In this document: positions 5,610-12,728 of the stretch, piece by piece
Layout of the letters: every line of letters starts with the position of its first letter
Numbering within the stretch: position 1 is the first letter of the stretch
Source: a virus
Virus record (IMG/VR): IMGVR_UViG_3300026519_000021
Location: 1-43,036 of that record
Direction: 5' to 3' (one strand)
DNA length: 43,036 nt
Made by a program: the position numbers and the translations under genes
Notes under the pieces: model-generated
The model's input: only the letters and a program-made list of their open reading frames with translations
Database searches by the model: none
Told to the model about the DNA's origin: nothing

Positions 5610-7328
5610 TTAAAAAGGAATATCAAAATATTCGTTGTTGTCAATAATTTCACTTACAGATTCTTCCTTATCTGAAAAATCATAATCAAGTATATCAAAA
5701 TACTTACCCTTTGGTTTTATAAGTATTCTTTTTGGCTGCGGATATTCGGCAATCAATGCCTCATCAACCGATTTAGGCACGTCAATATCAGGCAACCTCT
5801 TCTTATGCCACTTAACGGCTTGACTCCACGCAAATCTTTTATTGTCTCCAACATCAAATGTGTGATGCTCAAAACAAACCCACTCGCGAACAAGGTTGGT
5901 TAAGGTGTAATATGTTACCTTCATAGAGGGTAAACCGCCTTTTTTTTCATGCCTATCATAACCAACATCAAGGACATCAACCCACTCAGGCTCAATATCA
6001 ACACTGACAACAGCGGCGTTACCCGCAGAATCATCTAAAACAATGAAGCAATAAGAGCAATTATAGCAATATCTTTGTGAGGCTGCGCAAATAGAGCCGC
6101 ATTGAGGGCATTCTTTTGTTGCCGCCTCGCCTTCACCATCGCTCTCGACTTCCCCCATATATTTCTTATGAATCTCGATTTTATCTATTGGTCCTAATGC
6201 TTTTACAACCCCTCCATAGTCAACAATCATGCAGTTTGGCTTTATGCTATCCGCGATAGCCCTTAGTCTTGCCTCCCTTGTACTGGCATCATAATTGTCG
6301 GCATAGATTGGGCGAACCCCGCGACCTACGCATTGAATGTACAGCGCGGGGGAGCGCATCGGGCGCATAATACAAATAAGATCAATATATGGATCGTTAT
6401 AGCCAGTAGTTAACTTTGCTACATTAACAAGGGCTTTAAACTTACCAGCTTTGTGATTTTCAAGAATGCTATCTTCTTCATTTGCTGGTGTATCATCTGT
6501 AATAAACTCTGCTGCTATACCATGGGCTCTTAATTCATTACAAACATCTTCCGCATGCTGCTTTCCTGCCGCAAAAACCAACCAGCGGTTTCTGTTTCTA
6601 CCAAGATCAACAAGGTCATTAATACATAATTTGTTTATCTCTGGTGTGTTTACATTTCTTTCGATTGCGCTGCTTACAAAGTCACCATTGCGCATAGGAA
6701 TGTTAGATGTATCCATCTCAAAGGCAACTTTAGGGGATACGGGCTTAGCCCACCAACCCTCTTCAATCATATATGTCATAGGGATTGTATAGGTAACTTC
6801 ATCAAACAACCTATTCTCTCCTTCGTCGAGTCTGCCAGTGTCCGACCTAAAAACTGTGCCTGTAAAGCCAATAAGCCTTAAGTTTGGGTTTAAGACTAAG
6901 CAGTCAGCAATAAACTCTCTGTACTGCGTGCTACTCTTGTGCGAAACGAGATGCACTTCGTCAATTATTATTATCTCAGGTGGCCGAGGCATAAAGCTAG
7001 CTTTCCCTGCAATGCTTTGAATGCTCGCAAAAGTAACATCATTATGTAGTCTCTTCTGCTTTAGTCCTGCGCAATATATGCCTGCGTCAACATTTGGGTA
7101 TTGTGAAAACAGCTCTATTACGTTTTGTTCAATAAGCCTTTTGCTGTGAACTAGTGATAATATTCTTAAATGCGGATATAGAGCATGCAATCTTCTAATG
7201 GTCTCGGCAATAAGAAACGACTTTCCAGCAGCGACAGGAGCGTCAATTAAAGCGTGTTTTTTTGTGGTGAATAGGTGATTAAATAAGTAAACCAAGGCGG
7301 GCTCTTGGTAATCTCGTGCGGTCTTCAT
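5610..7328 (-). CDS. SF2 DEAD/DEAH-type helicase with C-terminal zinc ribbon
   Basis: ATP-dependent superfamily 2 helicase of the type I restriction/RecG/RadD-like class. Visible motifs: Q-like RDYQEP (5-10), motif I APVAAGKS (30-37), motif II DEVH (123-126), motif III TGT (156-158), motif V-like AKLTTGYN (304-311) and motif VI QCVGRGVR (332-339). A four-cysteine ribbon CPQC...CYNC (C407, C410, C421, C424) follows, then about 140 residues of unknown fold ending in an acidic tail. The ATG at 7328 has AAGGATAATT directly upstream. It is the last gene of the recombination operon, 8 nt after the Cas4-like nuclease gene; helicase and nuclease may work together on DNA ends, which is inference from adjacency. 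Confidence 0.9.
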   Translation of the reverse strand: MKTARDYQEPALVYLFNHLFTTKKHALIDAPVAAGKSFLIAETIRRLHALYPHLRILSLVHSKRLIEQNVIELFSQYPNVDAGIYCAGLKQKRLHNDVTFASIQSIAGKASFMPRPPEIIIIDEVHLVSHKSSTQYREFIADCLVLNPNLRLIGFTGTVFRSDTGRLDEGENRLFDEVTYTIPMTYMIEEGWWAKPVSPKVAFEMDTSNIPMRNGDFVSSAIERNVNTPEINKLCINDLVDLGRNRNRWLVFAAGKQHAEDVCNELRAHGIAAEFITDDTPANEEDSILENHKAGKFKALVNVAKLTTGYNDPYIDLICIMRPMRSPALYIQCVGRGVRPIYADNYDASTREARLRAIADSIKPNCMIVDYGGVVKALGPIDKIEIHKKYMGEVESDGEGEAATKECPQCGSICAASQRYCYNCSYCFIVLDDSAGNAAVVSVDIEPEWVDVLDVGYDRHEKKGGLPSMKVTYYTLTNLVREWVCFEHHTFDVGDNKRFAWSQAVKWHKKRLPDIDVPKSVDEALIAEYPQPKRILIKPKGKYFDILDYDFSDKEESVSEIIDNNEYFDIPF

Positions 7329-9847: not shown

Positions 9848-9926
9848 TTTTGTACTTAAAATATATTACGGCAATTAAATTTTAGAAGAATTAGACATTA
9901 TAACAATAGAAGTGGAGCAATAAATC

Positions 9927-10424
9927 ATGGAAAATAAAATGAATACTATTAACTATATGAGAGGCTTATATAGTTTTGTTGAAGAAAGCAATAAAATTGA
10001 AGGCATAAACAGACCCCCAACAAAAGAGGAAATAGATACGCTTAAATGGTTTTTGTCCCTTGATAAAATCACCATTAATAACCTAATCAAGTTCGTTGGT
10101 GTTTACCAGCCAGATGCGCAGTTTAGGAATAACGCAAAAGTCCCAAGCGTTCGGGTTGGTAAACATAAGCCAATTGTTAGTAGTATGCTTGTTGAAATAC
10201 ATATACAGCGTATAATCGAACAGTTAAATAACAATAGTAGAAGCATTTATTGTAACCATGCACAATATGAGACCCTCCATCCGTTCACAGACTGTAACGG
10301 CAGGTCAGGGCGCGCGTTGTGGCTTTGGCAACATAAAAAATACAGCTTAAATTTTAATGCTGTTTTAAAGCGTGGATTTTTGCATAGCTGGTATTATGAA
10401 TCACTCGAAAACTGGAGAAAATAA
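9927..10424 (+). CDS. fic: Fic-domain protein with N-terminal inhibitory motif
   Basis: A minimal 165-residue Fic protein, predicted to transfer AMP or another nucleotide/phosphate group to protein hydroxyls. The catalytic loop is HPFTDCNGRSGR (118-129), matching HPFx(D/E)GNGRxxR except that the first Gly is Cys (C123). Catalytic H118 and both Arg (R126, R129) are present. The flap region FRNNAKVPSVRVGKHKP (66-82) is typical. Residues 21-26, SNKIEG, match the autoinhibitory (S/T)xxxE(G/N) motif, placing it among class II-like Fic proteins that carry their own brake. ATG at 9927 follows GTGGAGC; the next gene starts directly after its stop. No antitoxin-like partner gene precedes it. Target unknown; it may modify a host protein or act as a toxin. 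Confidence 0.85.
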   Translation: MENKMNTINYMRGLYSFVEESNKIEGINRPPTKEEIDTLKWFLSLDKITINNLIKFVGVYQPDAQFRNNAKVPSVRVGKHKPIVSSMLVEIHIQRIIEQLNNNSRSIYCNHAQYETLHPFTDCNGRSGRALWLWQHKKYSLNFNAVLKRGFLHSWYYESLENWRK

Positions 10425-10727
10425 ATGAAAAATGAAACTTATACAGACGGAAGCCCCAGTCGAACGTGGTATGAAGAGCAGGGCAAATTTAAACGCGCCG
10501 ATCTTGTGCCTCAATGGCATCCTATGGAAACTGCTCCAGAAGGCAAAGATATTCTAGTTTATTGTGAGGAAACTGGGGAGATGTTTGTTGTTTTTTGGGC
10601 AATGCAAGTCACTACTGAAAAATATAATTGGGTTATAGCTAGAGCACATGACGGAACATGTTTTATCTGCGCGAACCCAACCCATTGGATGTTGTTACCT
10701 AAGCCACCTAAGGAGAATAACTTATGA
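10425..10727 (+). CDS. DUF551 domain protein
   Basis: A 100-residue protein carrying the phage DUF551 signature WHPMETAPEGKDILVY (31-46) with the downstream THWMLLPKPPKE (about 86-97). DUF551 proteins are frequent in temperate and virulent phages of Proteobacteria; function unknown. The ATG follows the fic stop without a gap (TAAATG), so translation is probably coupled, and its own TGA overlaps the next ATG (ATGA). It has no signal peptide or membrane segment. Confidence 0.8.
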   Translation: MKNETYTDGSPSRTWYEEQGKFKRADLVPQWHPMETAPEGKDILVYCEETGEMFVVFWAMQVTTEKYNWVIARAHDGTCFICANPTHWMLLPKPPKENNL

Positions 10728-11059
10728 TATCATCTGCAACAGAAGCACTTAAAATGCTGATTGACGAATATGAAAGAACGAGTAATACGGCGTTTGAGCG
10801 CGGGTTTGTTTGCGGGTTAACAACGCGCCAACAAAAAGGGGTTTTGTTAGCTCGGCGGGTCTTGTCTCGGGAAGCATTTCAATCTTTCAAACAAGGCGAT
10901 AAAGTTCGTAAAAAAGGAAATAAGGGTCAATGGCACGGTGTTATATGTGGAAAATATAGCACAGCCATAACCCCAGAGGGTTATGCTGTAGAAAGCGTTT
11001 ATGAAAAAGGAAGCGTGCAAATTTATCCTGTAAATGCGCTGGAGAAATGGGAGAACTAA
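10724..11059 (+). CDS. R67/DfrB-like dihydrofolate reductase homologue with N-terminal extension
   Basis: Residues 57-111 of this 111-residue protein align almost end to end with the SH3-like barrel of plasmid R67 (DfrB) trimethoprim-insensitive dihydrofolate reductase: GDKVRKK, W70, Y78, then TPEGYAVES and GSVQIYPVNALE. The R67 active-site residues K32, Y46, T51, G64 and the VQIY 66-69 strand correspond to K63, Y78, T83, G96 and V98-Y101, with a one-residue insertion near 65-69. Functional R67 is a homotetramer with one central pore. An added ~56-residue N-terminal helical part (EALKMLIDEYERTSN...LLARRVLSREAF) is absent in R67 and could block or modify assembly. AAGGAG precedes the ATG, which overlaps the DUF551 stop. 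Enzymatic activity is inference; an SH3-fold binding role is the alternative. Confidence 0.75.
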   Translation: MISSATEALKMLIDEYERTSNTAFERGFVCGLTTRQQKGVLLARRVLSREAFQSFKQGDKVRKKGNKGQWHGVICGKYSTAITPEGYAVESVYEKGSVQIYPVNALEKWEN

Positions 11060-11060
11060 A

Positions 11061-11675
11061 ATGGATTATTATGAGTTAACAGATGATACTAAAACGTTGC
11101 CTAATGGCACGAAAGTCTACAGAATAAGATCTACACTGGCTTTTGCCAATATTAAAAAAGGCGAGTTAGGGGGCTGGGTAGAGCATAAAGGTAACTTGCT
11201 GTACCCTGCTTGGGTTTCTGATGAGGCTTGTGTTTCTGATGAGGCTTGTGTTTTTGGCATGGCTAGGGTTTCTGACAAAGCTTGTGTTTCTGATGAAGCT
11301 AGGGTTTCTGACAAAGCTTGTGTTTTTAATGACGCTAGGGTTTCTGATGAAGCTTGTGTTTTTGGCAGTGCTTGGGTTTCTGATGAAGCTAGGGTTTCTG
11401 ATGAAGCTAGGGTTCTTGGCAGGGCTAGGGTTTTTGGTAAAGCTTGGGTTTCCGGAGAAGCTAGGGTTTCCGGAGAAGCTAGGGTTTCTGATGAGGCTTG
11501 TGTTTCTGATGAAGCTATAATTTCTGACAAAGCTAGGGTTTTTGGCAGAGCTAGGGTTTTTGGCAAAGCTTGGGTTTTTGATGAAGCTATAATTTCTGAC
11601 AAAGCTAGGGTTTTTGGCAGAGCTAGTATTTCTGGTAAAGCTAGAGTTTCTGAAAACAAAATGAAATCAATATAA
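11061..11675 (+). CDS. Hexapeptide-repeat (left-handed beta-helix) protein, YdcK-like
   Basis: The start is taken at the ATG at 11061 (GGGAG about 7 nt upstream), giving 204 residues; an upstream in-frame ATG at 11034 lies inside the previous gene without a ribosome site. The N-terminus (LPNGTKVYRIRS, then IKKGELGGWVE) is a conserved leader of phage/prophage beta-helix proteins. From about residue 50 to 196 the protein is a run of six-residue units (VSDEA[CR], VFGKAW, VSGEAR) with V at position 1 and A at position 5, the pattern of left-handed beta-helices seen in acyltransferases. No catalytic His for acetyl transfer is apparent. The DNA repeats with an 18-bp period. Role unknown: surface, scaffold or host-interaction protein. 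Confidence 0.75.
   Translation: MDYYELTDDTKTLPNGTKVYRIRSTLAFANIKKGELGGWVEHKGNLLYPAWVSDEACVSDEACVFGMARVSDKACVSDEARVSDKACVFNDARVSDEACVFGSAWVSDEARVSDEARVLGRARVFGKAWVSGEARVSGEARVSDEACVSDEAIISDKARVFGRARVFGKAWVFDEAIISDKARVFGRASISGKARVSENKMKSI
11211..11650 (+). repeat. 18-bp tandem coding repeats of the beta-helix gene
   Basis: About two dozen 18-bp units of the form GTTTCTGATGARGCTNGG or GTTTTTGGYARAGCTNGG follow each other in frame, each coding one hexapeptide. Adjacent units are often identical (for example the doubled CCGGAGAAGCTAGGGTTT at about 11450-11485), a sign of recent slippage. Confidence 0.8.
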
Positions 11676-11820: not shown

Positions 11821-12342
11821 ATGTTTATAATTGGCGCACTACTATCAAGGCTACACGGGTCAACGTGGCTGCCTTATAAAATATTAAAGTCAATCCTATG
11901 GGCTTTGCCATTCGCCGTGATAGTTTGGTTGTTGTTAGGGGGCTGGTGGGCGTTACTTGTCCTTGCTGGCTGCTCACTAACCAAATCAACAGGACATGGC
12001 AACTGGCTTGATTATGGGCGCAGAAATAATGAAGTATTCGAGGATGAGCGCACCGAGTTTCTTATTAAGCCAGCTAAAAGTAAATTAAGCGGTTATTGGT
12101 ATGACGCTTTAGGAATGCTAATAACTGGCATTTTAAGCACGCTACCATTCGCACTGGTTATGTTTTTTGTAAATCCTATATATTACGTTGTGGCAGTATT
12201 TGGCGGTGCATTAAAGACAGTTGGTTACATGATCGGCTGGAAGTTTTTACCTAAACAGGCAACTGTAATAGGTGAACTATTTTCGGGCGCAACAGCATAT
12301 CTGGTTTTAGACTTAATCATAATTATGGAGTTTGTTTTATGA
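11821..12342 (+). CDS. Phage integral membrane protein, unknown function
   Basis: A 173-residue protein with hydrophobic segments at about residues 20-54, 94-133 and 148-172, giving four or five membrane passes. Between the first two lies a conserved-looking polar loop KSTGHGNWLDYGRRNNE and EDERTEF, a pattern I have seen in phage inner-membrane proteins of unknown role. AAAGGATAAGTAA precedes the ATG, and its TGA overlaps the GcrA-like start (ATGA). It could be a superinfection-exclusion or host-takeover protein, but nothing in the sequence proves this. Confidence 0.65.
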   Translation: MFIIGALLSRLHGSTWLPYKILKSILWALPFAVIVWLLLGGWWALLVLAGCSLTKSTGHGNWLDYGRRNNEVFEDERTEFLIKPAKSKLSGYWYDALGMLITGILSTLPFALVMFFVNPIYYVVAVFGGALKTVGYMIGWKFLPKQATVIGELFSGATAYLVLDLIIIMEFVL

Positions 12343-12728
12343 GATGGACAGAGGAAAAAGATCGAGAAATTAAAGCTTTAGTCAAAAAAGGTTTAACCTA
12401 TCGTGAAGTTGGTGAGCTGGTTGGGGTATCAAAACGAGCCATAGCGAACAGGATTTACAGACTAAAGATTGATAAACCAAAGCATGTGTGGATTAACAAC
12501 GATAAAAATAGCAAAATAAATAAGCAATCAGATTACAAACAGCGTGAGCAAGATTTTGATGGAGTTCCTCTTGACGGTCTTAAAAATAGCCAATGCCATT
12601 ATACCGTAAATGCAAAAGATTTCTGCGGTGATGATGTTAAAGGAAAATCTCCATATTGTGAGAGGCATTACAAAATATGCTATACAAAACCAAAACAATT
12701 AACACCTAAAGGAGACAAATATGGTTGA
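12339..12728 (+). CDS. gcrA: GcrA-like cell-cycle transcription regulator
   Basis: A 129-residue protein with the GcrA plan. Residues 1-43 are an SANT/HTH-like DNA-binding domain beginning MRWTEEKDREI with LTYREVGELVGVSKRAIANRI; GcrA proteins begin M(S/R)WT(D/E)E in the same way. The linker is short (44-75). The C-terminal domain LKNSQCHYTV...DFCG...SPYCERHYKICY (81-115) has the C86, C96, C107, H110 pattern typical of GcrA, whose C-terminal domain contacts the sigma-70 factor. Cellular GcrA is usually longer (about 170 residues), with the difference in the linker. In Alphaproteobacteria GcrA activates genes at CcrM-methylated promoters, so a phage copy could redirect host cell-cycle transcription or activate phage promoters. 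It starts inside the stop of the preceding gene. Confidence 0.85.
   Translation: MRWTEEKDREIKALVKKGLTYREVGELVGVSKRAIANRIYRLKIDKPKHVWINNDKNSKINKQSDYKQREQDFDGVPLDGLKNSQCHYTVNAKDFCGDDVKGKSPYCERHYKICYTKPKQLTPKGDKYG

Follow-up and report, generated by a model that had tools for sequence, protein, structure and literature searches.

A DfrB-type dihydrofolate reductase homologue with a helical N-terminal extension in a podovirus-like phage

What does a gene of the R67/DfrB type do in a phage genome? The original function and source of the DfrB resistance enzymes have been stated as open questions (PMC11662351, PMC9835603); Burkholderiales have been described as environmental hosts of dfrB, and what advantage DfrB is selected for has been called poorly understood (PMC11662351). 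The sequence analysed here, called the window, is the 43,036-nucleotide stretch of the IMG/VR record IMGVR_UViG_3300026519_000021, and the gene in question lies on its plus strand at positions 10724-11059.

Phage DfrB genes were known before. DfrB2-like genes were found in four freshwater viral contigs (PMC7265639), eight dfrB candidates were counted in lytic phages (PMC12466917) and dfrB was listed alongside queC, queD and queE among the folate genes of viromes (PMC10284932). Lemay-St-Denis et al. (PMC9835603) reported two phage proteins with extra domains, DfrB-H3 of a Pseudomonas phage and DfrB-H4 of a Vibrio phage. DfrB-H4 conferred trimethoprim resistance, DfrB-H3 was poorly expressed and stood outside the four homologues giving resistance, and DfrB-H5 showed R67-like kinetics and an R67-like oligomer, so that its extra domains blocked neither the tetramer nor the activity. 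The window protein shares with DfrB-H3 and DfrB-H4 the phage-encoded DfrB domain combined with extra sequence, as well as VQIY, K32 and W38, whereas these two are larger proteins with other extra domains. The earlier note on this DNA had called the extension new relative to R67 and had proposed the phage copy as a natural reservoir. Its main idea is correct, but phage homologues with extra domains had already been published in 2023. The window protein is nevertheless a genuine addition to the phage DfrB homologues already known.

The DfrB-like gene, its protein and its neighbourhood

The open reading frame starts with ATG and encodes 111 amino acids. A Shine-Dalgarno-like AAGGAG, read from the sequence at 10710-10715 (+), stands 8 nt upstream of this ATG, and thus the long form of 111 amino acids likely has the natural start. 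Residues 54-108 (10883-11047, +) are covered by the R67 dihydrofolate reductase family (Pfam: PF06442) with 65.7 bits against a cut-off of 25 (E 3.3e-18). Moreover, the protein matches R67 crystal chains (E 3e-14) and PHROG 31682 (E 4e-18), a phage family catalogued without function. The Pfam match, together with the phage structural genes on the contig, confirms the earlier identification of a phage-encoded R67/DfrB homologue with an N-terminal extension, and the proposed active-site strand and equivalents of K32, Y46, T51 and Q67 are all present.

Compared with R67/DfrB1 (PDB: 1VIE, 2RK1; Pfam: PF06442), the window protein shares the SH3-like core at 58% identity and all named active-site residues. 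K32, W38, Y46, T51 and S65 of R67 correspond to identical residues K63 (10910-10912, +), W70, Y78, T83 and S97, and V66-Y69 to the identical V98-Y101, the VQIY found at 11015-11026 (+) by translation, by the R67 chain alignment and by the core alignment. In contrast to R67, there is Lys for W45 and Glu for H62, the loop preceding W38 (KGNKGQW) is longer by one residue, and a predicted 57-residue helical hairpin replaces the short disordered N-terminus. W70, the counterpart of the R67 W38, presumably sits at the dimer-dimer interface as W38 does. The KGNKGQW-type loop is confined to the window protein and its closest relative, and the DfrB of Skermania phage SPI1 also carries an insertion at this loop, though a longer one of another kind.

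The AlphaFold monomer consists of two helices (residues 4-25 and 34-51) and a five-strand barrel. The predicted two-helix hairpin makes up the N-terminal extension of residues 1-57 (10724-10894, +), for which homologue searches were negative: residues 1-55 have no homologue in phages, viral contigs or Pfam. The best structural matches of the core found with Foldseek were all R67 (against 1vie E 1.1e-6, rmsd 1.8 Å and 58% identity; target TM 0.82-0.86 over the R67 matches), and the fold of the protomer is, as modelled, SH3-like. The NCBIfam model trim_DfrB (NF000331) gave 75.2 bits, below its curated cut-off of 137 bits, which marks true clinical trimethoprim-resistance DfrB. Clinical DfrB proteins have about 78 amino acids and, like R67 with its integron, an integron or resistance-gene context, whereas the window protein has 111 amino acids and is encoded in the accessory region of a phage genome.

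The contig encodes a terminase, a portal protein, a capsid (major head) protein, a tail protein and an endolysin, carries primase, helicase and AAA genes, and is a podovirus-like phage. Directly upstream of dfrB lies a DUF551 gene (Pfam: PF04448; 10425-10727, +; 24.5 bits, cut-off 22), whose last 4 nt are shared with the start of dfrB. This overlap agrees with the accessory operon drawn in the earlier note; the Fic gene placed there beside dfrB adjoins DUF551 instead. It is a Fic/Doc-like gene at 9927-10424 (+) with the motif HPFTDCNGRSGR and a Pfam score of 23.6 bits, just under the cut-off of 24. Its motif has Cys where Gly is usual, and its best PADLOC matches are PDC-S04 and SoFic. Downstream of dfrB follows a YdcK-type beta-solenoid repeat protein (11061-11675, +) made of near-identical short repeats.

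Further along the window there is a pentapeptide-repeat protein of 239 amino acids (1800-2519; Pfam: PF00805, E 6.5e-23), with an Alr5209-type model as its top NCBIfam match, below cut-off, and about 23-30 bits to Qnr models. A GcrA-like regulator (Pfam: PF07750) is encoded at 12339-12728. Such regulators are typical of alphaproteobacteria and their phages, which hints at an alphaproteobacterial host. Binning placed the contig in a 2.46 Mb assembly, in which no 16S was found. This assembly contains a folA of its own, so an extra dihydrofolate reductase is not obviously needed. Among 368 other genomes searched from the same class as this assembly, not one contained DfrB, which therefore looks like a phage gene and not a host trait. 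No phage relative was retrieved by megablast with the window's first 25 kb.

Distribution of the family and exchange of the N-terminal module

With tblastn, 26 of 50,697 phage records were found to carry DfrB relatives. The same 26 records came back when two much more distant family members served as queries, indicating that the family is closed at the sensitivity of tblastn. In the examined records among these 26 the motif is kept, with few conservative changes. Individual pattern scans of IMG/VR yielded at most 229 related stretches, and these were reduced to 155 non-redundant viral loci; 39 DfrB loci were found in 84,980 bacterial and archaeal genomes. Judged by sequence, the whole active site is retained in many of the phage relatives. 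This is one of three new points here, the others being the exchange of the N-terminal module and the FolE-QueD-QueE linkage.

Among the relatives there are several unusual arrangements. In Vibrio phage 1.030.O (L084) a DfrB-domain protein (5743-6399) is encoded between a DNA circulation gene and a baseplate J gene, in a tail-module-like setting. In L068 (4947-5597) the DfrB core is fused to a downstream stretch which by eye resembles MazG-type pyrophosphohydrolases. The DfrB-like gene of Rhizobium phage RHph_N38 (L088, 5028-5243) is unannotated and lies in a different frame from the annotated HTH gene.

The closest relative of the window's dfrB is in the viral contig IMGVR_UViG_3300026519_000030 (G040; its DfrB-like gene is labelled L002/L182). 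A DNA block of 95.7% identity extends over 10895-11055 (+), and its left edge is the domain boundary: the match ends there and the extension DNA is unmatched in G040. The two N-termini have equal length and are each predicted to form a two-helix hairpin, whereas their sequences are unrelated, with a similarity not above that of shuffled sequence (z 0.7). Both DfrB proteins share the loop insertion, and both genes are followed by a YdcK-type gene (about 81% DNA identity); in G040 a second tandem copy of the latter begins. Upstream, the window keeps at 9881-9923 (+) a 3'-terminal remnant of the gene that stands immediately before dfrB in G040, a mosaic scar, and the remainder of that gene is missing from the window. 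Otherwise the two phages have only weak terminase and HTH similarity in common, and G040 is Pam3-like in some genes.

Because the core match stops at the domain edge and a different hairpin of the same length takes over, core and extension appear as a shuffled module. As far as these sequence comparisons go, the dfrB core has moved between structurally unrelated phages with its helical add-on swapped. We propose that dfrB would be accessory cargo which unrelated phages pass on to one another as a block, and that the hairpin would hang outside the tetramer as an exchangeable add-on. By a rough rule, N-terminal extensions of at least 31 amino acids are present in 47 of the 92 viral loci with a start supported by a ribosome binding site.

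Linkage to folE, queD and queE

When the genes neighbouring dfrB in the 155 viral loci were clustered, QueD ranked first (23 loci), with FolE (18) and QueE (16) also among the commonest families. At least one of the three lies within 6 kb in 24 of the 155 loci, the family assignments being confirmed with Pfam, PHROGs and NCBIfam. In these 24 loci dfrB is commonly directly beside queD, folE or queE, in the gene orders queD-dfrB, folE..queD-dfrB-queE and folE-dfrB..queD..queE. In at least 10 loci the stop of queD and the start of dfrB share 4 nt, and the coordinates show the same 4-nt overlap with the folE stop in about four. QueD identity falls to 38% within the linked group, so the link between dfrB and the pterin genes has outlived much divergence.

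This suggests dihydropterin reduction in the queD/folE-linked group. The product of QueD is prone to oxidation, and from gene order and chemistry we propose that DfrB in these phages might keep it reduced for QueE. One could go further and see the native job of DfrB in dihydropterin reduction for 7-deazaguanine or pterin synthesis, for example in keeping 6-carboxy-tetrahydropterin reduced for QueE, and not in folate reduction. We hold this broader reading to be possible and attach clearly less than even chances to it. In its favour, the phage with the closest core, G040, has a canonical QueD 1.6 kb upstream of dfrB. However, the linked loci share many other neighbours and nearly all come from one broad freshwater phage group. 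Outside this group QueD occurs in one of 50 DfrB contigs, that of G040, against one of 46 control contigs, and a general enrichment of QueD with DfrB was thus rejected. Furthermore, in the DfrB contigs, which may be incomplete fragments, QueC gave a single weak match and QueF none over cut-off, and in the window itself folE, queD and queE were not detected with phage-derived profiles.

Two other roles were considered and rejected. DfrB as a stand-in for QueF found no support, since the weak QueF matches are apparently FolE frames, which have the same fold, and QueC is almost absent. Thymidylate supply as a general reason for DfrB is at odds with a thymidylate-synthase-family gene in just 9 of the 50 DfrB phage contigs (ThyA family in 8, ThyX in 1, counted in DfrB contigs alone); a FolA-type DHFR was found in none of the 50. 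Besides, the QueD homologues of the freshwater group (L215, L231, L240 and relatives) read AYRQ and HGY where the canonical QueD of G040 has GHRV and HGH, and judging from these motifs their zinc ligands may be missing.

Pore conservation, function and origin

K32 (Lys63 in the window), W38, G40, G44, Y46, T51, G54, Q67 and P70 are invariant in all 183 distinct cores, position 69 is Y in 180 and W in 3, I68 is kept in 177 and S65 in 180, the counts for VQIY, TPEGY and, in one scan, W38-Y46 being biased by the search patterns. The invariance of K32 is little biased, because this residue is outside the short motif patterns that found nearly all loci; positions 31, 33 and 34 beside it vary freely. 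Position 62 is E in 124 cores and H in 58. Of the 7 differences that separate the core of the window from that of its nearest relative, 6 are synonymous (P = 5e-4). In the pterin-linked group, three pairs have a dN/dS-like ratio of 0.03-0.13, a fourth pair, misaligned by an insertion, having been left out of this estimate. The invariant pore residues and the dominance of synonymous changes indicate that the ligand pore is under purifying selection.

We consider it likely, though well short of certain, that the gene encodes a working R67/DfrB-type protein, carried as phage accessory cargo for folate or pterin reduction. Four SH3-like cores would assemble into a D2 tetramer with one central pore, in which NADPH and a dihydropterin (dihydrofolate at least) would bind side by side and a hydride would pass between them. 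During infection DfrB would most likely replenish the pools of reduced folate or pterin. Pterin or folate reduction is probably the trait selected in phages, and the unusual active site would bring trimethoprim insensitivity as a side effect. Counted against this reading are the missed trim_DfrB cut-off, the insertion beside the dimer-dimer Trp and the replacement of W45, together with the poor showing of the phage protein DfrB-H3, the folA of the assembly, the few thymidylate-synthase-family genes in DfrB phage contigs and the negative profile search for folE, queD and queE in the window.

Two further readings accept the fold and deny the reaction, and both seem improbable to us. The pore could bind or sequester NADPH or a signalling nucleotide as its ligand without catalysis, for example in counter-defence: the surrounding accessory region, which includes DUF551 and the Fic-like gene, would fit, and the invariant ligand-binding residues would suit any phosphate-bearing ligand. 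However, the best structural matches include no known nucleotide sponge, the DfrB-like protein has no PADLOC match, and published homologues catalyse dihydrofolate reduction (PMC9835603). No better placed is a decaying or purely structural domain kept just for oligomer formation; SH3-like folds are common non-enzymatic modules and many DfrB cores are fused to unrelated phage pieces, yet K32 and Q67, which contact the ligand and do not form the fold, never vary and synonymous changes dominate. A trimethoprim-resistance cassette recently acquired from an integron or plasmid, as the fold and active site shared with DfrB1 and the integron DfrB among the best plasmid matches might suggest, was rejected as very improbable, because identity to plasmid copies is at most about 62%, the closest relative is found in another phage, the NCBIfam score stays below the resistance cut-off and resistance genes were not seen in the annotated dfrB neighbourhood.

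Most of the diversity in a tree of 182 cores is viral, and R67 falls inside it, grouped with Burkholderiales-type copies at weak resolution. The tree is built on 53 columns with few supported forks and uneven sampling, and on the origin of clinical DfrB it is only suggestive. The earlier idea of a natural phage reservoir gains from the hundreds of viral loci and from the position of R67 and the bacterial copies inside mostly viral diversity, weakly resolved as this is; we regard phages as a plausible reservoir of DfrB, not a demonstrated one. A bolder idea, which we think rather unlikely, is that DfrB enzymes are at root phage dihydropterin reductases working beside FolE, QueD and QueE in 7-deazaguanine or pterin synthesis, and that the integron enzymes are their stripped-down descendants. 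If true, the dihydrofolate activity of integron DfrB would be a side effect.

The viral DfrB set compiled here is larger than those in the cited literature, and it has its whole ligand pore kept under selection. With the window protein it gains a clear example of a core moved between unrelated phages with the helical add-on swapped, and the tight coupling to queD and folE in the freshwater phage group gives a concrete, testable clue to the natural substrate.
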